From Tildeniella nuda ZEHNDER 1965/U140 (GTDB lineage: Bacteria > Cyanobacteriota > Cyanobacteriia > Leptolyngbyales > Leptolyngbyaceae): a stretch of 64,000 bases of DNA. The translations under genes and the position numbers were made by a program. The notes under the pieces are model-generated. The model worked only from the letters and a program-made list of their open reading frames with translations. It was not told the origin of the DNA and did no database searches. The stretch spans positions 1 to 64,000 of the forward strand of contig JAHHIG010000022.1 in NCBI GenBank assembly GCA_019358895.1. The letters are read 5' to 3'. Shown here piece by piece: positions 46,025 through 58,877 of the stretch (positions are counted from its first letter, which is position 1; the number at the start of each line of letters is the position of its first letter).

Positions 46025-47098
46025 TCAGGTGTCGATCAACCCGATTTCGTCGAGAACAGCATCGGTCAAATCAGCGGCTTGCAGGTTTGTGTCAGTCAAG
46101 GTTGCGCCACTCAGAGTTGTTTCGGTCAAGTTTGCGCCCCACAAATTTGTGCTGGTAAGGTTTGCGCCAGTGAGGTTTGCCTGCATCAGGTTTGCGCCCC
46201 AAAGGTCGGCTGACGTGAGATTCGCCTCTGTTAAGTCAGCTCCGGTGAGGTCTGCGCCAGAAAGCGTTACGCCACGCAAATCGGCGTGTTTTAGCGAAAC
46301 ATGAGGCGCGATGAGGTAAGCACCGTACTGTTCGGGATTGTAGTCGGCGGGGAACTGCGTGCGGCTGTCGTAAACGGCTCCTTGCAGGTTGGCAGCGGTC
46401 AGTGTAGCAGTGCGGAGGTCTGCACCAAACAGGTTGGCTTTCCACAAGTTTGCGCCTGTGAGGTCTGCATGGGCTAAAACGGTGCTGCTCAAATTGGCAT
46501 ATTGCAAGCTGGCATAGGTCAGCTTGGCATGAGTCAGGTTAGCGCCGCCGAGATTGGCTTTCAGCAGGTCGGCTTCGTGCAGGGCGGCGTTCTGCAAGGC
46601 GGCTGTGCTCAGGTTGGCATGGCTGAGGCTGACACCAAAAAGGGTGGCGTACTGCAAGTTGGCATGGCGCAAGTCTGCCTCGCTCAGATCGGCACCGCTG
46701 AGATCGGTTTGTGCCAGGATTGCTTTTTGTAGAAGGCTTTGAGGCGCGATAAGGTAGGCGCTGGCGATCGCCGGATCAAAGTTGACAGGAAAGCGGGTCG
46801 TCCGATCGTACAGAGCGCCTTGTAGATTAGCACCGTCTAGAGTTGCATCGCTCAAGTCGGTCGATCGCAGGTCTGCGGCGGTGAGGATTGTGGCGGTGAG
46901 GTTGGTGCGAGTCAAACTGGCAGCGTTAAAGCGTGTGCCTGCCAGGTTTGCCTGACTGAGATCTGCATCGCTCAAATCGGCTTCCCAAAAATCGGCGGCT
47001 GGCAAGTCTACCTGTTTGAGGTTTGCCCAGCTTAGATCGATGCCGCTAAAATTGCGTTCACCGATCGCATAGTTTGCTAACAGTTCTTGAGTATTCAT
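46025..47098 (-). CDS. Pentapeptide-repeat protein
   Basis: 357 residues. After about 12 residues the protein is built from A(D/N)LxxA pentapeptides (for example ADLSDADLSQANL, ANLSSTVLAHADLTGANL) arranged as two repeat blocks separated by a repeated linker (YDRTTRFPVNFDPAIASAYL and YDSRTQFPADYNPEQYGAYL). It should form a right-handed quadrilateral beta helix. The linker itself is duplicated, indicating an ancient duplication of half the protein. No TM or kinase domain. The role of such proteins in cyanobacteria is mostly unknown. Start ATG at 47098. Confidence 0.93.
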   Translation of the reverse strand: MNTQELLANYAIGERNFSGIDLSWANLKQVDLPAADFWEADLSDADLSQANLAGTRFNAASLTRTNLTATILTAADLRSTDLSDATLDGANLQGALYDRTTRFPVNFDPAIASAYLIAPQSLLQKAILAQTDLSGADLSEADLRHANLQYATLFGVSLSHANLSTAALQNAALHEADLLKANLGGANLTHAKLTYASLQYANLSSTVLAHADLTGANLWKANLFGADLRTATLTAANLQGAVYDSRTQFPADYNPEQYGAYLIAPHVSLKHADLRGVTLSGADLTGADLTEANLTSADLWGANLMQANLTGANLTSTNLWGANLTETTLSGATLTDTNLQAADLTDAVLDEIGLIDT

Positions 47099-47130: not shown

Positions 47131-47302
<172 letters not shown>

Positions 47303-47367: not shown

Positions 47368-47946
47368 TCAACCAGGAAGCGCTCTATGCCCTGATTCAGG
47401 CAACGCGGGTTGAGCTGGCAGCAATTGGTCGAGATGCAGCAGAAAAAAGGGCGGTTGGTCTGGCGCTGGAACGATTAAGCATTTGACGCAGCGCAGCCCT
47501 TCTGCCAAATAGGCATCAGAAAGCGGTACAAAAGCAGACGCTGGCACACGGCGCAGCATGGGTTGAGCGTCGAGCGGAAAGCCGATCGCTTCCCCAGTTG
47601 ACGTTTCTACAAGCAAGAGAAAGCGCTGTGGCTGTGGCAGGCGTGATTCAGGCTGTAGCGCTGCACGATCGGGCGGCACAGAATCAGGTAGCAGTGGCTG
47701 ACTGGCGGTACCAAAGATGCGCTGCTGAAGATTGAGTACGGGGATTTCGCGATCGTGATAAAGCGTCATGCCGATCGCTGCACCTGCCCCCGCACCATAC
47801 ACAGTGCCTAATGGAATTACTTTCTGAACCGCTTGAATGGGTAGTGCAAACCACTCTTGCTGCAAGCGAAACACGATGAGCTGATGAGAAAATTCTGCTT
47901 TGCGCGATCGAAGGCGTTGGGAGCGAGGGGAGAGTTGGAGGGACAT
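47368..47946 (-). CDS. CheW-like adaptor protein
   Basis: 192 residues. HQLIVFRLQQEWFALPIQAV and LYHDREIPVLNLQQRIFG are CheW-domain segments, and FLLLVETSTGEAIGFPLDA is the second half of the fold. The middle (about 85-110) is an extended variable loop. CheW couples receptors to CheA; this is the second CheW domain of the pix region, after pixI. It lies downstream of pixL on the same strand, but about 800 bp of repeats separate them, so co-transcription is uncertain. Confidence 0.88.
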   Translation of the reverse strand: MSLQLSPRSQRLRSRKAEFSHQLIVFRLQQEWFALPIQAVQKVIPLGTVYGAGAGAAIGMTLYHDREIPVLNLQQRIFGTASQPLLPDSVPPDRAALQPESRLPQPQRFLLLVETSTGEAIGFPLDAQPMLRRVPASAFVPLSDAYLAEGLRCVKCLIVPAPDQPPFFLLHLDQLLPAQPALPESGHRALPG

Positions 47947-47954
47947 GAGGTGGG

Positions 47955-48045
47955 AGGGGGAGTGGGGAGTGGGGAGTGGGGAGTGGGGAGTGGGGAGTAG
48001 GGAGTAGGGAGTGGGGAGTAGGGAGTGGGGAGTAGGGAATGGAGC
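47955..48045. repeat. GGGGAGT heptamer repeats
   Basis: About ten GGGGAGT/GGGAGTA units upstream of the cheW-like gene. Confidence 0.93.
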
Positions 48046-48225: not shown

Positions 48226-48239
48226 ACTTTTCAAACAAC

Positions 48240-48590
48240 CTCTGATGTGAGAGGTTCGTGATTCATGCTCGGAGGTTCAGCGGTCATGTTCGGAGGTTCG
48301 TCAGCCATGCTCGGAGGTTCAGCGGTGATGTTCGGAGGTTCGTCAGCCATGCTCGGAGGTTCGTCAGCCATGTTCGGAGGTTCGCGGTTGATGCTCGGAG
48401 GTTCGTCGTTGATGTTCGGAGAATCGTCAGCCATGTTCGGAGGTTCAGCGGTGATGTTCAGAGGTTCGCGGTTGATACTCAGAGCATCGTCAGCCATGCT
48501 CGGAGGTTCATCGTTGATGTTCAGAGATTCGTCAGCCATGCTCAGAGCATCGTCAGCCATGCTTGGAGATTCGTCAGCCATGCTTAGAAG
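48240..48590. repeat. 21-bp minisatellite (ATGCTCGGAGGTTCGTCAGCC type)
   Basis: About 16 degenerate 21-bp units; the core is GGAGGTTCG, and units vary at GTCAGCC, GCGGTTG and CGTTGAT. Open frames on both strands (for example heptapeptides ADEPPSM on the minus strand, 48231-48704) follow from the period being a multiple of three. Neither has a family match, so no gene is called. Confidence 0.92.
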
Positions 48591-48674
48591 AAGGCTAAAG
48601 TCACCTAAAGTCACCGATTGATCGTCTGAGCTTGCAACCACACACTTCCTTCTAACTCCTCTGAAGCCATCGGT

Positions 48675-48775
48675 CTCCTTCTCCCTGACTCCCCACCTCC
48701 CCACCTCCCCACCTCCTCACCCCTCACCCCTCACCCCTCACCCTTCACCCCTCACCCCCTCACCCCTGCCTCAAT
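48675..48775. repeat. CCCACCT and CACCCCT heptamer repeats
   Basis: Pyrimidine-rich CCCCACCT units (about 48685-48720) followed by ACCCCTC units (about 48718-48768) at the 3' end of pixL; the last pixL codons read through the edge. Confidence 0.9.
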
Positions 48776-51700
48776 CACACGCCCCAGCGTTTGCAAGAGT
48801 TCGTGCTCGTTGTAGGGCTTGGAGAAGTAGGCAGTTGCGCCCAGGCTCATGGCAAGTTGACGATGTTTGTCACCGCTACGGGAGGTCAGCATGGTAATCG
48901 GCAGATGCTCCAGGGCAGGACTGGCTTTGACCTTGGTGAGAAAGCCGTAGCCGTCAAGACGAGGCATTTCGATGTCGCAAATGACTGCCTGGACGGACAG
49001 CCCTGCCTGAAGCTTTTCGATCGCGTCTTGACCGTCTTTTGCCTGTTCGACGCGGTAGCCTGCTTTTTCGAGCGTTAATGCCAGAAAGCGGCGCACGTTG
49101 ATGGAATCATCGATGACCAGGATTTTGGTGATGGGGGCAGAGGGGAGAGATAGGGCAGGGGTACGATCGATCGCAGCGACTGGGGCAGGCACCTGACTGG
49201 GTGCTGTATGGAAACCGGAGCGTTCGCAGCTTGTAATCCAGTGCAGCAGTTCGGGTACGTTCACCAGGGGCACCACGCGACCATCGCCTGTAATCGTGCA
49301 GTTGGCAAAGCCAGAGGGCAATGACAGCGTGCCTTCAATGCGACGAATGGCAACTTCTTGTTCTCCCCAGCAGCGATCGACCTGCAACCCAAACAACTGT
49401 GTACCCTGACTGACGATTAAAACCGTCGCTTCGTTGATGCTGGGCGGCGCTTCCAGGGCGTAGGGTTGGCGCAGGCAGTTGAAGACGAGCCAGCGAGCCA
49501 GTCGAATGAGCTGTATGAGAGTGCCATCCCAGTTAAGGACTTCGCCGCCAGCAGTGGCAATTACCTGTTCTGATTGCAGGAGCACAAGTTCGCCAACGAC
49601 ATCAGCGGGGAGCGCCAGCAGCATCCCATTACTTTCGACGAGCAGGACGCGCACAACGGAGAGCGTGAAGGGCAGTGACAGGGTGAAGGTCGTGCCAACC
49701 CCTGCTTCGGTGGCGACGGTGATTTCACCCCGCACTTGCTTGAGGTTGTCGCGCACGACATCCATGCCAACGCCGCGACCAGAGAGGGCAGTCACCCGAT
49801 CGCTCGTGCTAAAGCCGGGTTCAAAAATGAGGGACAGCAGCTCTTGATCACTGGCAGCGGCTAGAAGCGTCGGATCTAAGCCCATTTGCTCAGCTCTAGC
49901 GCGCACTTTATCAATGGGGATGCCTGCACCATCATCTCGGATGGTGATGAGTGTCCGATTGCCCCGATGGCTGGCTTGAATTTCGATCGTGCCGTCGGCT
50001 GGCTTATTGCGAGCAAGGCGCAATTCAGGGGCTTCAATGCCGTGGTCAAAGGCGTTCCGCAGCAGGTGCATCAGCGGGTCGTTCAGTGCTTCGAGGATGT
50101 TGCGATCGATGAGCGTGCTGCCACCGCTGAGTTGAAGTTTGACGTTCTTGCCGTACTGCAACGAGAGGTCACGAATGGCGCGGGGAAAGCGATCGACCAC
50201 ATCGGATAGGGGACGCATCCGCACCTGAGTCAGACCCGTTTGCAGTTGCTTCGCCGTTTTGTTGAGTTCACGGATGGTTTGCTCGGTGTCATCCAGGTTT
50301 AGCTCAATGTCAGTAGACACTTCCTGGATTTGGACAATGGATTCCGTCATTTCTTGAGACAGCAAGTGATGTTTCCCGTAGCGATCCATTTCCAGACTGT
50401 CAAAGCGGGTATCTGAGTGGGGAGTGGGGGGTGGGGAGTAGGGAGTAGAGGGTGAAAGATGCGCGCTCTGCGTTGCTTCTGGTAGGGCAGGACGCAAGGC
50501 GAGTAGCTTGAAGTCTCCGACGGTGCGCGGTGTTGCCTGATCGTAGAACGATCGCAGTCGAGCATTGGATTGCTCCAGGGTGCGAATACGCCGATTAAGA
50601 GTACGGGTGAGGCTACGCAGCCGATGGATGTAAATGTCCAGACCGTTGCGCTCGATCGCCAGTTCGCCTAACAAATCGTTGAGTTGATTGAGCTGCTTGA
50701 TGGGTACTCGCACAGTGGCATTGGTATCTTCCTCTTCTGCCTCAGCGTCTGCATTAGCATCCAGCACTCGGAAGTCAGTCGCGCGCGAGGCATCGCCTGT
50801 GGGCTGGTGTCGTACTAGCGGTTGCAGCGGTTCGGGTGGCTGCTCTGAGGGTTGGCTAGACGGCTCTTCGTCAGGCGCTGCCTGGGTCGCCTGCAACTCG
50901 ATCGGGAAAAAGTCAACGCTGTCGGGTGCTGTATGCCAGGTATCAAAAACTTCGATCGGCAAGTCGTCACTGTCTGGCTCATCGTGCCAGGTATCAGCGG
51001 CGGTCAGGTGGTCAGCATTGTCAGGCAGAATGGCAAGTGCGGCAAGGTCGAGTGCTTCAAGGTCGATCGTGGTGGGCAGGCGATCGCACTCATCCGCTAA
51101 CACAACTGCCTGTGACTGCCGCCAAGCTTGCAGCGCCGCATGAGCGATTACTTCTGTGCGATCGGGCGCGGTGTCCAGGGCATACGTGACTGATTCGCAC
51201 AGGCTAATGAGGGCAGTCAACTGAAGCATTTCGCCGAGTCCACCTAACTCTTGCGCCAGAATGGTCAGCTCTTCGCGCAGGCAAGGCTGATCAGGGTTTG
51301 ACAACACGGCTTCCAGGCGCTGCAAACAGCCTTCGACTTCGGTTTCAAACAGCAGGGCAATCACTGCCTGTCCGTCGCTGTCGGGCGAGAGAACGGAAGC
51401 CGCATCTTCTGGCTGGGGTTCGCCAAGCTGCTCGTACAGTTGGTCAAAAATTGGGGCTGCCTGCGCGGTTAGCCAGTCAGCCTCGACGGGACGATGCTGG
51501 CGATCGCACGACACCACATGACGCAAGCAGTCGATCGCAGACAGCAGTAACCGCTCCAGATCTAAATCAATTTCGATTGATTTCTGAATTTTCAGGACTT
51601 TGAACGAATCTTCCAGACGGTGCGCTAGGTCGCTCAGCGCCATAAAGCCCATCATGCCTGCGCCACCCTTGATCGAGTGAGCCGCCCGCAGCGCTGCGTT

Positions 51701-51820
51701 GATTTGCTGAATATCAACACGGCTGCTTGACAAGCCCAGCACCGATGTTTCCAGGAGGTCGAGATAGTCCTGTGCCTCGTCTAGAAACTGCCGTCGGATT
51801 TCCAGTTCTTTATCCTGCAT
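48752..51820 (-). CDS. pixL: PixL, CheA-type hybrid histidine kinase
   Basis: 1022 residues from the ATG at 51820; the frame further upstream passes through repeats and is rejected. Domain order: Hpt (1-110; phospho-acceptor His48 in AAHSIKGGAG), long linker, CheA dimerisation and HATPase (about 530-720; HLLRNAFDHGIE near 587 and DDGAGIP), CheW (about 725-870), receiver (about 895-1020; Asp949 in CDIEMPRLDG). It phosphorylates PixG and PixH in the twitching-motility phototaxis pathway. A repeat-derived segment (TPYSPPPTPHS, about residues 448-458) lies in the linker. It follows pixJ on the same strand after 286 bp of repeats. Confidence 0.95.
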   Translation of the reverse strand: MQDKELEIRRQFLDEAQDYLDLLETSVLGLSSSRVDIQQINAALRAAHSIKGGAGMMGFMALSDLAHRLEDSFKVLKIQKSIEIDLDLERLLLSAIDCLRHVVSCDRQHRPVEADWLTAQAAPIFDQLYEQLGEPQPEDAASVLSPDSDGQAVIALLFETEVEGCLQRLEAVLSNPDQPCLREELTILAQELGGLGEMLQLTALISLCESVTYALDTAPDRTEVIAHAALQAWRQSQAVVLADECDRLPTTIDLEALDLAALAILPDNADHLTAADTWHDEPDSDDLPIEVFDTWHTAPDSVDFFPIELQATQAAPDEEPSSQPSEQPPEPLQPLVRHQPTGDASRATDFRVLDANADAEAEEEDTNATVRVPIKQLNQLNDLLGELAIERNGLDIYIHRLRSLTRTLNRRIRTLEQSNARLRSFYDQATPRTVGDFKLLALRPALPEATQSAHLSPSTPYSPPPTPHSDTRFDSLEMDRYGKHHLLSQEMTESIVQIQEVSTDIELNLDDTEQTIRELNKTAKQLQTGLTQVRMRPLSDVVDRFPRAIRDLSLQYGKNVKLQLSGGSTLIDRNILEALNDPLMHLLRNAFDHGIEAPELRLARNKPADGTIEIQASHRGNRTLITIRDDGAGIPIDKVRARAEQMGLDPTLLAAASDQELLSLIFEPGFSTSDRVTALSGRGVGMDVVRDNLKQVRGEITVATEAGVGTTFTLSLPFTLSVVRVLLVESNGMLLALPADVVGELVLLQSEQVIATAGGEVLNWDGTLIQLIRLARWLVFNCLRQPYALEAPPSINEATVLIVSQGTQLFGLQVDRCWGEQEVAIRRIEGTLSLPSGFANCTITGDGRVVPLVNVPELLHWITSCERSGFHTAPSQVPAPVAAIDRTPALSLPSAPITKILVIDDSINVRRFLALTLEKAGYRVEQAKDGQDAIEKLQAGLSVQAVICDIEMPRLDGYGFLTKVKASPALEHLPITMLTSRSGDKHRQLAMSLGATAYFSKPYNEHELLQTLGRVIEAGVRG

Positions 51821-51824
51821 GGGG

Positions 51825-52105
51825 AAGGGGGAGGGGTGAGGAGTAAGGGGGGTGGGGTGTGGGGTGTGGGGTGTGGGGAGTAGGGTGTGGGGAGTGGGGA
51901 GTGGGGAGTAGGAAGTAATACCAAATCCCAAAGTCGGCACTACAGATCGACTCGACATCACCCTCAATCCCTCTCCCTGGGGAGAGGGACTTTCCTTAAA
52001 CACCCTTCTCCCTAGGGAGAAGGGATGGGGATGAGGGTCAAGGATCTGTAGCCTTTGCAAACTGAATAACCTCACCTCTCACCTCTCACCTCTCACCTCA
52101 CCTCC
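51825..52105. repeat. Repeat-filled gap between pixJ and pixL
   Basis: GGGTGTG/GGGGAGT heptamers (about 51830-51912), a CTCCCTGGGGAGAGGG palindrome with a second CTCCCTAGGGAGAAGGG (about 51970-52030), and CTCACCT heptamers (about 52070-52105). The paired palindromes may form a REP-like element. It splits the pix operon with no gene inside. Confidence 0.88.
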
Positions 52106-52106
52106 T

Positions 52107-55100
52107 TCACCCAACTTTGAAGGTGCCGACGGATGCCTGTAGCTCTTGAGCGACTTCAACGGTCTGACGAAGTGAGTCTGAAACCTGCCGAGATGAATCG
52201 GAGGTGCGTTCAGACACTTGCACCACGTCTCGCATGAGGGTGGCGATCGCCTCTGAGGTCTGCGTTTGCGAAACGGTGGCGTTGAAGATCGACTGCACCA
52301 ACCGATCGATCTGACGGGAGACCTCCAGCAGTTGCACCAGACTTTGTTTCGCATCACCGACGAGCCGCGTTCCTTCGACCACCTGGGTTGTGCCCAGCGA
52401 CATGGCTTCGACGACTTCGCTGGTTTCCCGCTGGATGGTGCTGACAATCTGCTCAATTTCTTGAGTGGCAACCGCCGATCGAGCCGCCAATTCACCGACT
52501 TCCTCAGCCACCACTGCAAAGCCTTGACCTTGTTCGCCAGCCCGTGCTGCCTCGATACCAGCGTTAATTGCCAGCAGGTTGGTTTGCAGTGCGATCTGGT
52601 TAATCAGCGACACCACTTTGGAGATCTGCTGCGACGATTCACCCAGGCGTTTGACCTTTTTGGCAGTTTCGCCGATCGTGTCTCGGAGCGCCAGAATGTT
52701 TTGCACGGTCAAATCCATTGCGTCTTCGCCTGCTTCGGCGGTGGTGGCAGCCGATCGGGTCACATCGGCTGCCTGTCGAGCACTGGTTGCCACTGTTTGA
52801 ATCGAGCTTGCCATCTGCTCGACAGAATCTAGCGTACGCGTGGTTTCCGTCGCTTGTTTGGACGCGTCTGCGGCAAGCTGCTGCATGGCGTGTTCGTTTT
52901 GACCGAGCGAGGCGTTCACCTCCAGGGCAGAGACTTTGACCTGCGTCACAATCTGCCGCAGACTTTCTACGATCGAGTTAAAGAAGTCGGCAACCGTACC
53001 GATTTCGCCTGCCGTAACCTCAGCGCGTACCGTAAGATCGCCGCTGGCGGCTCCTTCGATGTCACCTAGCAGTTGTAGAAGCTGTAGCTGCAATGTTTCT
53101 GTCTGTTGCCGCCGCTCCTCAGACAGCGACTCGGTAATGGCTTGGGCGCGTTCTTTCTCTTCAAATAAACGTGCTTGCTCTAACGCAAAACCAAGCTGGG
53201 TAGAGGCTTGCTTGAAGAAGCTGGCTTCGATCGTCTTCCACTCACGCGGGGCGGAGCATTGATGCACACACAGTAAGCCCATAAGTCGGCTACCTTCCAA
53301 AATGGGTGCTGTGATGCTGGCTCTAATTTCAAAGTTCTTGAGAATCTCACGATGGCAGGCAGACAAGCCTTCCGCCTCGACATCGTTCATTGTCCGCACA
53401 CGACCATCGCGGTATTGGTCAATCAGACCTTCACGGAAGGGGTCGTTGACCACAGCACCCAAGATGGACTCGTAGCCCTTCACGATCGACTCGGCGCACA
53501 CTGTTCCGGTATGGTCGGGGTTAAATTCGTACACAACGACTCGATCAGCATTCAAAGCTACGCGCGTTTCGTGGGCAGCGGCAACGAGAATTTCGTCTCG
53601 TTTGATGCTTTGCCGAATCTTGAGCGTTACCTCAGTGAGCAAGCGATCGAATTTGGCTTCTTCTTCGCGTTGTTGCAACAGCGTCGCTTGCTCCAGTGCA
53701 AAGCTCAACTGGACAGCGACTTGCTGGAAGAAGCTGATTTCATCGTCTTGCCATTGACGCGGTGCCGAGCATTGATGGGCAATCAACAGCCCAAGGAGTG
53801 CGTCTTCGACCAGAATGGGCACCACCAGGTTTGCTTTGACCTGGAAGGGTTCAAGCTGTCCAAGGTAACAGTCAGTCAGCCCAGCCTCGTGGATATTAGC
53901 CGTTGCCTGAACGCGCCCTCGACGGTACTGCTCAACATAGGTTTGGGCAAAGCAAGGGTCAGCAATCTGGGCACCTAGCGCGATCGGAAACCCTGATGCC
54001 ACGGATTCAGCCGTGACTGTACCCTTCCAGTGTTCATCAAAGAGGTAGACGATCGTGCGATCGACTCCCAGTGCGTCACGGGTGCCTTTAAGCGTTGCTT
54101 TGTAAATCTGCTGTGGATCGAGCGTCTCACGCATCCGTGAGGTAATTTCGTTGAGCAAGCGATCGAATTTGGCGGCGGTTTCACTCTTCTGCAACAGCGT
54201 CGCCTGCTCTAGCGCAAAGCTTAGCTGAATGGCAACTTGCTGCAGGAAATTGATTTCGCTTTCTTGCCACTGACGTGGTGCCGAGCATTGATGGGCAATC
54301 AGCAGACCAAGGAGCGTGTCTTCGACCAGAATGGGCACCACCAGGTTTGCCTTGACCTGGAAGGGTTCAAGCTGTCCGAGGTAACAGTCGGTTAGCCCAG
54401 CCTCGTGAATGTTGGCAGTTGCCTGCACACGCCCTTTGCGATACTTGTCGATATAGCTTTGAGCAAAGCAAGGATCGGCGATCTGAGCACCTAGCGCGAT
54501 CGGAAACCCGGGTGCCACGGATTCAGCCGTGACTGTGCCCTTCCAGTGTTCATCAAAGAGGTAGACGATCGTGCGATCGACTCCCAGTGCGTCACGTGCG
54601 CCCTTGAGTGTGGCTTGATAAATCTGCTGTGGATCGAGCGTCTCGCGCATCCGCGAGGTAATTTCGTTGAGCTGGCGGGCTTGTTTCGCAGCAAGTTCTT
54701 GCCGCTTGAGCAAGTCTGCTTGATCCAGGGCGTAGCTAATCTGGGTCGAAAGCTGCACAAAAAAGTCTAGATCGGATAATTGCCATTCACGGGGATGAGA
54801 ACATTGATGGGCACAAATTAACCCCATCAGTTCACCGTTCACTTTGATGGGGGCAACCACATTCGCTTTCACCTGAAGACGCTCTAAGACTTCGCAGTGA
54901 CAGTGACTGAGATTACCTTTAGAAACGTCAGCGATAGACCAGACACGCCCATTCTTGTAGCGCTCGATCGCCCCTTCCACTAACGGATCGTGAATCGTCT
55001 GCCCCAATGCCCGAATCCAGCCAGCACCGACCGATTCGGCAGTAATCACACCGCTCTCATAGCCCTCGTTAAAGCGGTAGATCAAGACGCGATCGACTTT

Positions 55101-56645
55101 CAGAAACTCTCGAATTTCGTCTACACCCGTTTGCACAATGTCGTCAAAGTGAAGCGTCTGGCGGATTTTCACTACCACGTTACTGAGTAGCTCCGACTGT
55201 TGTGCCTGCAAGTCTCGCTGCCGTGCTTCGGTTGCCAGTGCCTTTTCCGAGCTGACAATGCTGTCTGCCATCGCGTTGAACGCAATCGTCAGTTGACCCA
55301 CTTCGTCCAGTGAAGATACCTGAGCGCGCCGGGTGCGATCGCCATCGGCAAATGCCTGGGTTGTTTCCTCCAGCGTCTCTAAAGGCTTTAGGACTAACCG
55401 CCGGAAGGCAGCCGTCCAAAGGGAAACCACCAACAGCGTCAGAGCCAGTACCAGCGCTTCTTGCTGTAAGCTGCTGCCAAGCAACGCATTCAGCCTGTCT
55501 TCTGGTGTCCCTCTAACCAGAATCGCTGTGGGTTTGTCGCTATAGCTGGCTACAGCTCCATCCGGCGTTTCGACGATTTGATTGGGTATTGCCTTCGCCG
55601 CCACGGTGTAGCTGTGACCACCAATGTCGAGTCGCTGCGTTACGGCTTTTCCCTTTGCTGCTGCCGCTTCGTCTAGTAGCGCGGTGGTTGGTAGGGCAAG
55701 GTTATCTTTGGTATTAGCAGTGCCATCAGTTTTGGTTTTGTTTAAGGCAGTTGCCAGCACAAACTCACCGCTAGGCGGGCGCTCATATATGGCGCTGTAA
55801 CCGCCGCCAAAGGCTTTGAGTGTTTCGTTAACGATCGGCAGCTTGGCGTTGACAACGTCCCCAAACACTAGCGCCCCAACCACTGCTTTAGTATCAGGAT
55901 CTTTGATCGGTGTCACTACGTATCGGATCAGACTGTCTTGCTTGCTAAAGCCATTCGGTAACGGTGGCGCTTCTTTCGCCAGCTCAGACCACGACACAAT
56001 GGCACTGGACTTGATTTGAGCAGGTGCTTTGAGTACCTTGCTGACCAAGCCGTTAGGATCAAAGGTTTCGCCCTGGCGATCGACATTTGCATTCACCACA
56101 ATCCGCAAATCTCGATCAACCAGCGTCGCGTACTCCATCTTGCGGGCTTTCACCTCGTTTCGCAAAATCTGTCGTACCTGTGCATTCACGTCTGCATTAA
56201 GCCTGTTGCCCTGCGATTGGGCGCGTACAGCACTAATCAACGCTGTGTTGTCCGCTTGTCCCCGCGAACCATATCCCATCTGATCAAGCTTGGTGTTGTA
56301 GTTTGCCTCGGTAACGGCAACTTCTGATTTTGCTTGTTCCAGAAGTTGTGTCCGCAAACTGCCTGTCAGCGTAAGGGTAGACCAAACGCCTAAACCCAAA
56401 ATGGGCACCAGTTCACAAACAATGAGGGCAAGCGCCTGCTTACGACCGATCGACAAATTGCAGAATAACTGAATCAAAAACGGACGACGTTTTACCAGTG
56501 GTGGTGTTGGTAGAAAATCATCGGTTGATTCTAATGAGCGTTCAGAGGGAGCTGGCAGTGTTTCCCAGCGATCGCCGAGTTGAGCCGCGTCACGCGAAGA
56601 GGTGCGATTGTTAAGAGCTTCGGCTGCATCAGTACGATTAACCAT
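52107..56645 (-). CDS. pixJ: PixJ-type phototaxis receptor with four cyanobacteriochrome GAF domains
   Basis: 1512 residues. TM1 at about 72-93, a periplasmic sensor domain, TM2 at about 395-415, then HAMP, four GAF domains and a methyl-accepting signalling domain (hairpin [20 protein letters not shown]). Each GAF has the bilin-attachment Cys: C582 (CH), C754 (CY), C926 (CY) and C1097 (CH). GAF2 and GAF3 also have the DXCF motif (D724-F727 and D896-F899, DPCF), the second Cys used by blue/green-type cyanobacteriochromes. GAF2 and GAF3 are nearly identical over about 170 residues, with exact 172-residue spacing, a recent duplication. The receptor controls pilus-driven phototaxis through PixI and PixL. 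Confidence 0.95.
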
Positions 56646-56713: not shown

Positions 56714-57217
56714 TTACGGTACTGACGAATTGTGTAGAACAGGCGACTGTAAAAGGCTCAGCGCGTCCAACACAAACCAGATTTCTTGCTCTTGCAAAAC
56801 GCACCCACGGAGATACGTCAGCAAACTTGATGCCACATGGCTAGGCGGTGGTTGAATTTGATCCGGTGTCATCCACACCATGCCCTCAACCTGTTGCACC
56901 ACGACTCCCAGGGAAATCGTTCCTGGACGAACGATGACCAGGGTGTGCTGCTGTGTGTTTAAGTCCAGCGATGGTGTCCCTAGCAGTCGCGTCAGGTCAA
57001 CCACCCATAGCACTCGGCTCCGGCGATTCATGAGTCCAATGATGCAAGCAGGCATATTTGGCATCGGTGTGAGACGATTTGCCGATAGCACTAACACTTC
57101 TTGTACCTGCTTCATTGGCAGTACAACAGGCGTTTGTGGATCAAGCAAAAACTTGAGATACGCCTCACCCAACGAATGTAGACGGCTAGTAGGTAGTGTT
57201 AGCGCTGATTGCGTCAT
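56714..57217 (-). CDS. pixI: PixI, CheW-like adaptor
   Basis: 167 residues. YLKFLLDPQTPVVLPMKQVQ is the CheW start and LMNRRSRVLWVVDLTRLLG the middle of the fold. The gene is 4 bp downstream of pixH and 68 bp upstream of pixJ, in the order of the phototaxis cluster. It links the PixJ receptor to the PixL kinase. Start ATG at 57217. Confidence 0.92.
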   Translation of the reverse strand: MTQSALTLPTSRLHSLGEAYLKFLLDPQTPVVLPMKQVQEVLVLSANRLTPMPNMPACIIGLMNRRSRVLWVVDLTRLLGTPSLDLNTQQHTLVIVRPGTISLGVVVQQVEGMVWMTPDQIQPPPSHVASSLLTYLRGCVLQEQEIWFVLDALSLLQSPVLHNSSVP

Positions 57218-57221
57218 TGGT

Positions 57222-57599
57222 TTAACCCACGATGGCTTTAACGGCGCGAACTAATTGCTCGCGGGTGAAGGGCTTCGTCAGGTAGGCATCGGCTCCCTGC
57301 TTCATCCCCCACAGACGATCGATTTCCTGATTCTTAGAAGTGCAAATAATAATGGGCACTTTTTCAGTAACTGGATGCTTTTTTAAGCTGCGACAGAGTT
57401 CAAACCCACTCATTCCTGGCATCACAACATCTGTAATGATGACATCTGGTTTTTGCTCGATCGCTTTGCTTAAAGCCTCTTGGGCACTCACGGCATTGAT
57501 CACGGTATACCCACTTTCGCGCAGGTAATGACTCATTAATTCCCGCTCAGACGGCGTATCCTCAACCACCAAAATCGTGATCATCAGCGTTAAGCTCAT
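57222..57599 (-). CDS. pixH: PixH, CheY-like response regulator
   Basis: 125 residues, single receiver domain. ITILVVEDTPSERELMSHYL holds the acidic pair, Asp57 is the phosphorylation site (ITDVVMPGMSG), and Lys in the conserved LTKPF closes the pocket. A start at the sixth codon (Met at 57584) is also possible. PixH is thought to modulate the direction of motility together with PixG. Followed after 4 bp by pixI. Confidence 0.93.
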   Translation of the reverse strand: MSLTLMITILVVEDTPSERELMSHYLRESGYTVINAVSAQEALSKAIEQKPDVIITDVVMPGMSGFELCRSLKKHPVTEKVPIIICTSKNQEIDRLWGMKQGADAYLTKPFTREQLVRAVKAIVG

Positions 57600-57809: not shown

Positions 57810-58877
57810 CTAACAACTCAAGTGCTTGAACACAATCTTCAACAAATCTGATTGCGTAAACGGTTTAGTCAAGTAACCAGAAGCACCAACAAGTTTTGCT
57901 TTAGCGCGATCGATAAAGCCAGTGTTTCCTGTCACCATGATGATAGGCGTGTTTCTAAAGGTAGGATGTCGCCGCAGCAATGAGCACAACTCGTACCCAT
58001 CGAGGTTTGGCATTTCCACATCCAACAAGACCAAATCAGGCTTGCTACGTACCACCTGCATTAAGGCTCGTACTGGGTCATTGACCATGACAATGGCAAA
58101 GCTTGTGTCGTCTAAAAAGCTATTAATCGCCTGCAAAACAGTCGGACTATCGTCAACACAAACGATCGTATAGGTTGCTTTAAGAGACACATTTTCTGGA
58201 GGTCTATCTTTCTTGTTAGCGGCTGCGACAGCAGCACTAGAATCTCCAGGTGACAAATTGATTACTGTAGACGCTTGAGTGCCTCTCTTTTGGGCTACAA
58301 AATCAGGACGATTGCTTGGTGATGGCACTAACGGTTTGGCAACTCGTTGCTGTCGCAAACGCTCTTGACAAAATTCGACTAGCGGACGTAAATCAAGTCG
58401 ATAAAAGCTCGGAAATTCGTCGAATTTTTCTTTTTCAATCAACTCATAGCTACCCTCTTGCACTAAAAGGAAAGACTCTATCACTTCTTTTGCCAGCTCT
58501 TCAATTAACCCAGCCGCTTGAGCAGATGTAAGGTGTTGTTGCTCAACCAACCAGCAGAGTGCCCGATAATCAGAGCTAATTTTCGATCGCATCTCTGGCG
58601 CACTTTCAAAGAGCAGGCGCACTTGCACCCTTACTGGACTCACCAGGTTTATGACTTGACGACTAAGCTGGCGCAAATGACGATCCAGACGCTCAAAGCG
58701 ATCGATGGAAGAAGACGCATAAATCAGTTCGCCCTGGTCAAGATAAATCGACCAAACACCCGCATTACTAGAGACATGCAAACATCCACTGATCTGACGG
58801 CTTTTTGCCTGTGCTAGTAGACTTAACGGGTGAAGTTTTTGAGAGGGCTTGTGGTCAACCATAGAGATGGTATTCAT
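57810..58877 (-). CDS. pixG: PixG, PatA-type response regulator
   Basis: 355 residues. The N-terminal PATAN/DUF4388 domain (about 15-175) shows LSLLAQAKSRQISGCLHV and IYLDQGELIYASS; a Ser/Pro/Ala-rich linker follows, and the C-terminal receiver has Asp286 (LLDVEMPNLDG) and LTKPF. PatA-type regulators act on the type IV pilus motor, probably through PilB. It is the first gene of the pix operon. The gap to pixH (210 bp) contains short repeats. The ATG at 58877 or Met6 may be the start. Confidence 0.93.
   Translation of the reverse strand: MNTISMVDHKPSQKLHPLSLLAQAKSRQISGCLHVSSNAGVWSIYLDQGELIYASSSIDRFERLDRHLRQLSRQVINLVSPVRVQVRLLFESAPEMRSKISSDYRALCWLVEQQHLTSAQAAGLIEELAKEVIESFLLVQEGSYELIEKEKFDEFPSFYRLDLRPLVEFCQERLRQQRVAKPLVPSPSNRPDFVAQKRGTQASTVINLSPGDSSAAVAAANKKDRPPENVSLKATYTIVCVDDSPTVLQAINSFLDDTSFAIVMVNDPVRALMQVVRSKPDLVLLDVEMPNLDGYELCSLLRRHPTFRNTPIIMVTGNTGFIDRAKAKLVGASGYLTKPFTQSDLLKIVFKHLSC

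Follow-up and report, generated by a model that had tools for sequence, protein, structure and literature searches.

A PixJ phototaxis receptor of the Stenomitos clade with four bilin-type GAF domains and a probably old, homogenised DXCF pair

Gene content and domain organisation of the pix cluster

The window, a stretch of 64,000 nucleotides from Tildeniella nuda ZEHNDER 1965/U140 (contig JAHHIG010000022.1), carries on its reverse strand a pix gene cluster that includes pixJ (Table 1). A Pfam search of the PixJ product recovered four GAF stretches (6e-79), a HAMP domain and an MCPsignal domain, far above chance, and thus the combination of cyanobacteriochrome (CBCR) GAF domains, HAMP and MCP that characterises PixJ proteins. 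The gene is preceded by pixI, pixH and pixG and followed by pixL and a second CheW-like gene, an arrangement conserved in relatives; for the second CheW-like gene, comparison of gene neighbourhoods revealed an identical order in G001, G005, G006 and G031. No specific PixJ model of NCBIfam matched above its cut-off. The PixJ identity proposed in the initial annotation is supported by the domain set and by the pixGHIJL operon, and a ferredoxin-dependent bilin reductase (PF05996) is present in the genome. Judged from its sequence, the gene encodes a cyanobacterial phototaxis receptor of the ordinary PixJ type, with four bilin-type GAF domains, and its host belongs to the Stenomitos clade.

Table 1. 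Features of the pix cluster in the window, in the order of transcription.
Feature	Position	Strand	Description
pixG	57810..58877	-	DUF4388/PATAN + receiver; Pfam; order kept in relatives
pixH	57222..57599	-	CheY-type response regulator; Pfam; order kept in relatives
pixI	56714..57217	-	CheW; Pfam; order kept in relatives
pixJ	52107..56645	-	Membrane MCP-type cyanobacteriochrome, 1512 aa, HAMP-GAF1-GAF2-GAF3-GAF4-MCP
HAMP domain of PixJ, residues 414-463	55257..55406	-	Pfam PF00672
GAF1, residues 485-644	54714..55193	-	Canonical Cys582 in CHC motif; second Cys absent (one-residue deletion)
GAF2, residues 657-816	54198..54677	-	DXCF type: DPCF 724-727 with Cys726; canonical Cys754
GAF3, residues 829-988	53682..54161	-	DXCF type: DPCF 896-899 with Cys898; canonical Cys926
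GAF4, residues 1001-1159	53169..53645	-	Canonical Cys1097; second Cys absent
MCP signalling domain of PixJ, residues 1294-1477	52215..52766	-	Pfam PF00015
pixL	48752..52075	-	CheA: Hpt, HATPase, CheW, receiver; Pfam; order kept in relatives
Second CheW-like gene, end of pix cluster	47368..47946	-	Pfam E 8e-8

The intergenic regions of the cluster contain clusters of heptanucleotide repeats (AGCGGTC, GGGAGTG, CTCACCT and similar) at positions 47132-47301, 47952-48042, 48683-48767, 51826-51909 and 52071-52099. At the GTG given as its start, pixL probably runs into one such cluster (TPHTLLPTPHTP), and the real start is likely located downstream. Between the second CheW-like gene and pixL, a 21/63-bp tandem repeat array with about 16 copies of 21 bp (48231-48704, reverse strand) falls within an ORF reading MADEPPSMADEPPN; several frames are open there, and the array may be coding. 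A pentapeptide-repeat protein is encoded downstream of the cluster (46025-47098, reverse strand).

Motifs of the four GAF domains

The canonical bilin-binding Cys, claimed in the initial annotation for each GAF domain, was found at all four expected residues (Table 1), in every case within a C-[HY]-x3-L-x4-[VI]-[KR]-A motif, so that the four domains are bilin-competent by motif. The second Cys, within a DPCF motif, is likewise present in GAF2 and GAF3, which thus combine the canonical Cys with the Asp-Xaa-Cys-Phe signature of the DXCF type. Precisely this residue is deleted in GAF1 (DPL/CHC) and GAF4 (DPF/CH), and the same gap occurs in all sampled domains of GAF1 type (36/36) and GAF4 type (30/30). 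The CH motif ascribed to GAF1 and GAF4 separates them from GAF2 and GAF3 in this protein but does not distinguish the families generally, given the Cys522-His523 pair of TePixJ.

The best PDB match of GAF2 was TePixJ (3vv4, E 1.6e-47), with conservation of D492, C494, C522, Q526, L527 and N535; all of these except L527 are among the residues named for the TePixJ photocycle (PMC6955287). His523 of TePixJ is replaced by Tyr in both GAF2 and GAF3, giving a Cys-Tyr pair. All 45 sampled DXCF domains, GAF2 and GAF3 included, form one clade (SH-aLRT 98), whereas GAF1 groups with the GAF domains located ahead of the DXCF domain in PixJ proteins across the class, nearly all of which conserve the CHC motif. 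Among the domains sampled, 45/45 of the DXCF type and 35/36 of the GAF1 type retain D492, and the same numbers retain the canonical Cys. For GAF1 and GAF4, the best PDB match was the CBCR GAF domain of a dual sensor histidine kinase (6oap; 8e-34 and 1e-37, respectively), which differs from them in its output domain and in the one-residue deletion that they carry at the second-Cys site. The CBCR fold of the GAF domains is already secure at the sequence level.

The proposal that the receptor combines two blue/green-type sensors with two of another type holds insofar as GAF2 and GAF3 are DXCF domains closest to the blue/green TePixJ, and GAF1 and GAF4 lack the second Cys. Both of the latter possess the Asp, the canonical Cys and the following His expected of a bilin-binding GAF domain. 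Neither contains the WXDXXL motif that defines red/green (XRG) CBCRs (PMC11284453): GAF1 reads IHDPL and GAF4 VNDPF, with no Trp two positions before the Asp. The "other type" would therefore be a class that the motif does not fix.

We consider it probable that each of the four serial GAF domains attaches a bilin through its canonical Cys. That only the DXCF domains are photoactive, with GAF1 and GAF4 serving as structural relays, appears rather unlikely. Such an arrangement would agree with Synechocystis PixJ1, of whose GAF domains only the second binds bilin (PMC5812497), with the Ser that GAF4 bears where the other GAF domains have Asn535, and with the loss of the canonical Cys in some GAF4-type domains elsewhere; however, the conservation of Cys and Asp in GAF1-type domains across the class, and the retention of Asp, Cys and His in GAF4, argue against it.

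The DXCF pair in sister species

The closest relatives compared belong to the genus group of the window (Stenomitos clade): Stenomitos frigidus ULC18 (G001), Leptolyngbya sp. ES-bin-22 (G004), Lyngbya sp. HA4199-MV5 (G005) and Stenomitos rutilans HA7619-LM2 (G006). Most relatives are represented by draft or MAG assemblies. Counts of GAF domains in the orthologues revealed a GAF1-DXCF-DXCF arrangement at the same phase and with a spacing of 172 residues in all four sister PixJs, which also share the operon and the positional linkers of the window gene. The contigs of G003 break within the DXCF region and are compatible with a repeat, and no PixJ match above threshold was obtained in G002. Most PixJs sampled across the class contain GAF1-DXCF only.

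GAF2 and GAF3 are 90.6% identical over 160 aa and 87.1% identical at the nucleotide level, so that the near identity initially described applies to the proteins and less so to the DNA. About 62 differences are dispersed over 480 nt, 45.5 of them synonymous, with the frame kept, and the comparison yielded a dS of 0.56 and a dN/dS of 0.08; the high protein similarity is attributable to purifying selection together with homogenisation. Within species, dS between GAF2 and GAF3 ranges from 0.21 to 0.97, versus 0.75-2.3 for the single-copy GAF1 between species; the corresponding GAF1 values for the window gene against the sister species are 1.16-2.2. The exact offset of 172 residues between GAF2 and GAF3 is real, but GAF1-GAF2 and GAF3-GAF4 are likewise separated by 172, and among relatives 35 of 66 adjacent GAF pairs are spaced by 172 residues and 16 by 171. 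Since a spacing of 171-172 is the rule for these arrays, the offset is uninformative about the age of the duplication, and a recent event argued from it was rejected.

Probable homogenisation of the DXCF cores

In most comparisons, GAF2 and GAF3 of one species are closer to each other than to their positional counterparts (87.1% nt in the window gene versus at most 82.9%). In the tree of the cores, GAF2 and GAF3 of the window gene group together (97/97), and a group of all GAF2 domains of the genus is rejected (p-AU 3e-28). Conversely, in the tree of the linker and 5' segment, the GAF2 domains of the genus group together (94/95), and the pairing of GAF2 with GAF3 of the window gene is rejected (p-AU 1e-4). 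Consistent with the latter topology, the GAF1-GAF2 and GAF2-GAF3 linkers of the window gene share 83-86% nt identity with their counterparts in G001 and G004 (86% with both for the GAF2-GAF3 linker) versus 57% with each other. Cores that follow species and linkers that follow position point to an older duplication with intragenic homogenisation.

Paralogues closer than positional orthologues and mosaic boundaries, the hallmarks of concerted evolution, are clearest in G005 and G006, where the linker and the 3' half follow position and nt 60-300 follow species. In G006, a tract of 204 nt without a single difference (core nt 58-261) lies between differing flanks, and no tract as long arose in 2000 permutations. 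The signal is weaker in the window gene: the longest run in its gene-conversion test gave an uncorrected p of 0.03, and, away from the linkers, its signal of orthology towards G005/G006 does not exceed noise. DXCF domains parted by another GAF domain (G018/G027) and GAF4-type tandems (G060/G062/G063 and G233), used as controls, cluster by position, indicating that tandem GAF domains are not generally subject to homogenisation.

These patterns would be most simply accounted for by a single duplication that preceded the radiation of the genus, with intragenic gene conversion thereafter, unequal crossing-over being not fully separable from conversion. On the whole, we regard a four-GAF bilin PixJ whose older DXCF pair has been homogenised within each species as the probable explanation, and a fairly strong one. 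Conceivably, although we would place the chance slightly below even, intragenic conversion has continued for as long as the genus has existed and has kept the adjacent DXCF pair alike. The pair would then always have remained a matched short-wavelength pair, while the separated DXCF domains and GAF4-type tandems of the control genomes diverged by position. In a partial search of the literature, we found no report on cyanobacteriochromes that describes concerted evolution, gene conversion or the duplication of domains.

Among the alternatives for the origin of the pair, recurrent birth and death, in which DXCF units are gained and lost by unequal recombination and the pairs of sister species are partly independent, is improbable. 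DXCF pairs are also carried by G014, G010 and, apparently independently, G150 (L079, another family), whose congener G133 has a single DXCF domain; unequal recombination thus appears to contribute at least elsewhere. Moreover, the GAF3-GAF4 linker of the window gene is similar (78-79% nt) to the linker between GAF2 and GAF3 in G005/G006, as might result from a swap or deletion of units. Within the genus, the conserved phase and linker positions speak against this process, as does the positional orthology that G005/G006 retain at both ends of the unit.

A recent, lineage-specific duplication in this genome, as the initial annotation had it, would explain the protein identity of the two domains and their sister relationship in the core trees; it is very unlikely given the same pair in four sister species, the shared positional linkers, the rejection of the pairing in the linker segment and the dS value. 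Near-identical tandem units are an assembly hazard. That GAF2/GAF3 is an assembly duplication has only this general hazard in its favour, and was rejected with near certainty, as the dispersed, mostly synonymous differences leave the frame intact and independent assemblies contain the same arrangement. The two copies are therefore, by their sequences, neither an assembly duplicate nor very recent.

Distribution of GAF4

GAF4 distinguishes the window PixJ from its sisters, as no counterpart was found in the PixJs of G001, G004, G005 or G006. It belongs to a third clade, which is also represented in the PixJs of G030, G031, G022 and G289, and in G010; its nearest relative is the second GAF domain of the G030 PixJ (63%), from another genus. 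The GC and GC3 contents of GAF4 (0.53 and 0.585) are like those of the rest of pixJ, and composition is thus uninformative about a foreign origin of the domain. The similarity of the window GAF3-GAF4 linker to the one between GAF2 and GAF3 in G005/G006 hints at an ancestrally longer GAF array, later shortened in the sisters; a gain of GAF4 in the window lineage is possible.

Members of the GAF4 clade form tandem arrays in G060, G062, G063 and G233. These MCP proteins (L130-L135) carry three or four GAF4-type domains, which cluster mostly by position, even across families, as would an old array without homogenisation.

Proposed function and comparison with known receptors

In the four-GAF receptor that we favour, GAF2 and GAF3, as TePixJ-type DXCF domains, would form a second, photolabile thioether at Cys726 and Cys898, and would photoconvert between one state that absorbs blue light and another of longer wavelength; their exact colour is uncertain owing to Cys-Tyr in place of Cys-His. 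Lacking the second Cys, GAF1 and GAF4 would absorb at longer wavelength and, if bilin-binding, add a corresponding input. Through the isometric helical linkers, photoswitching may be relayed to the MCP domain, and this domain would signal via PixI/PixL (CheW/CheA) to PixG/PixH, in an integration of bilin photoswitching into MCP and PixL analogous to PixJ1/PtxD (PMC5812497). Two equal DXCF sensors could cooperate as a pair or give more weight to light of short wavelength. The pair probably originated in a PixJ of the common GAF1-DXCF type, at a time prior to the radiation of the genus, and partial homogenisation within each species since then would make the copies look younger than they are.

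PixJ has been described with one to five GAF domains (PMC13383048), and the window PixJ belongs among the many-GAF PixJ/PtxD receptors already known. It resembles TePixJ of Thermosynechococcus and Synechocystis PixJ1 (TaxD1) as an MCP receptor encoded in a pix/tax1 cluster with a GAF domain followed by a DXCF GAF domain, GAF2 and GAF3 matching the TePixJ GAF domain including both Cys, Asp492, Gln526 and Asn535. Unlike these receptors, it has two DXCF domains instead of one, the additional GAF4, and Tyr in place of His523 in GAF2 and GAF3 alike. In Nostoc punctiforme, PtxD (NpF2164) has seven GAF domains, two of them with the second Cys linkage (PMC5812497). As in PtxD and multi-GAF PixJs, several CBCR GAF types precede one MCP domain serially, and two dual-Cys domains are present as in PtxD; in a comparison by number and type of domains, the window PixJ differs in having four GAF domains, its dual-Cys domains being adjacent, near-identical and apparently homogenised.

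Because spacing is an architectural constant and identity is renewable by conversion, caution is due in dating domain duplications in modular photoreceptors from protein identity or equal spacing. If the matched pair were maintained by selection, the sister species would offer a natural series (three versus four GAF domains, Cys-Tyr versus Cys-His pairs) for probing why a phototaxis receptor has two equal short-wavelength sensors. As a separate observation, among the DXCF domains of L049-L058 and L129-L139, Cys-Tyr occurs in 15 of 22 domains from two-DXCF proteins versus 1 of 23 from one-DXCF proteins, a difference much of which is explained by kinship.
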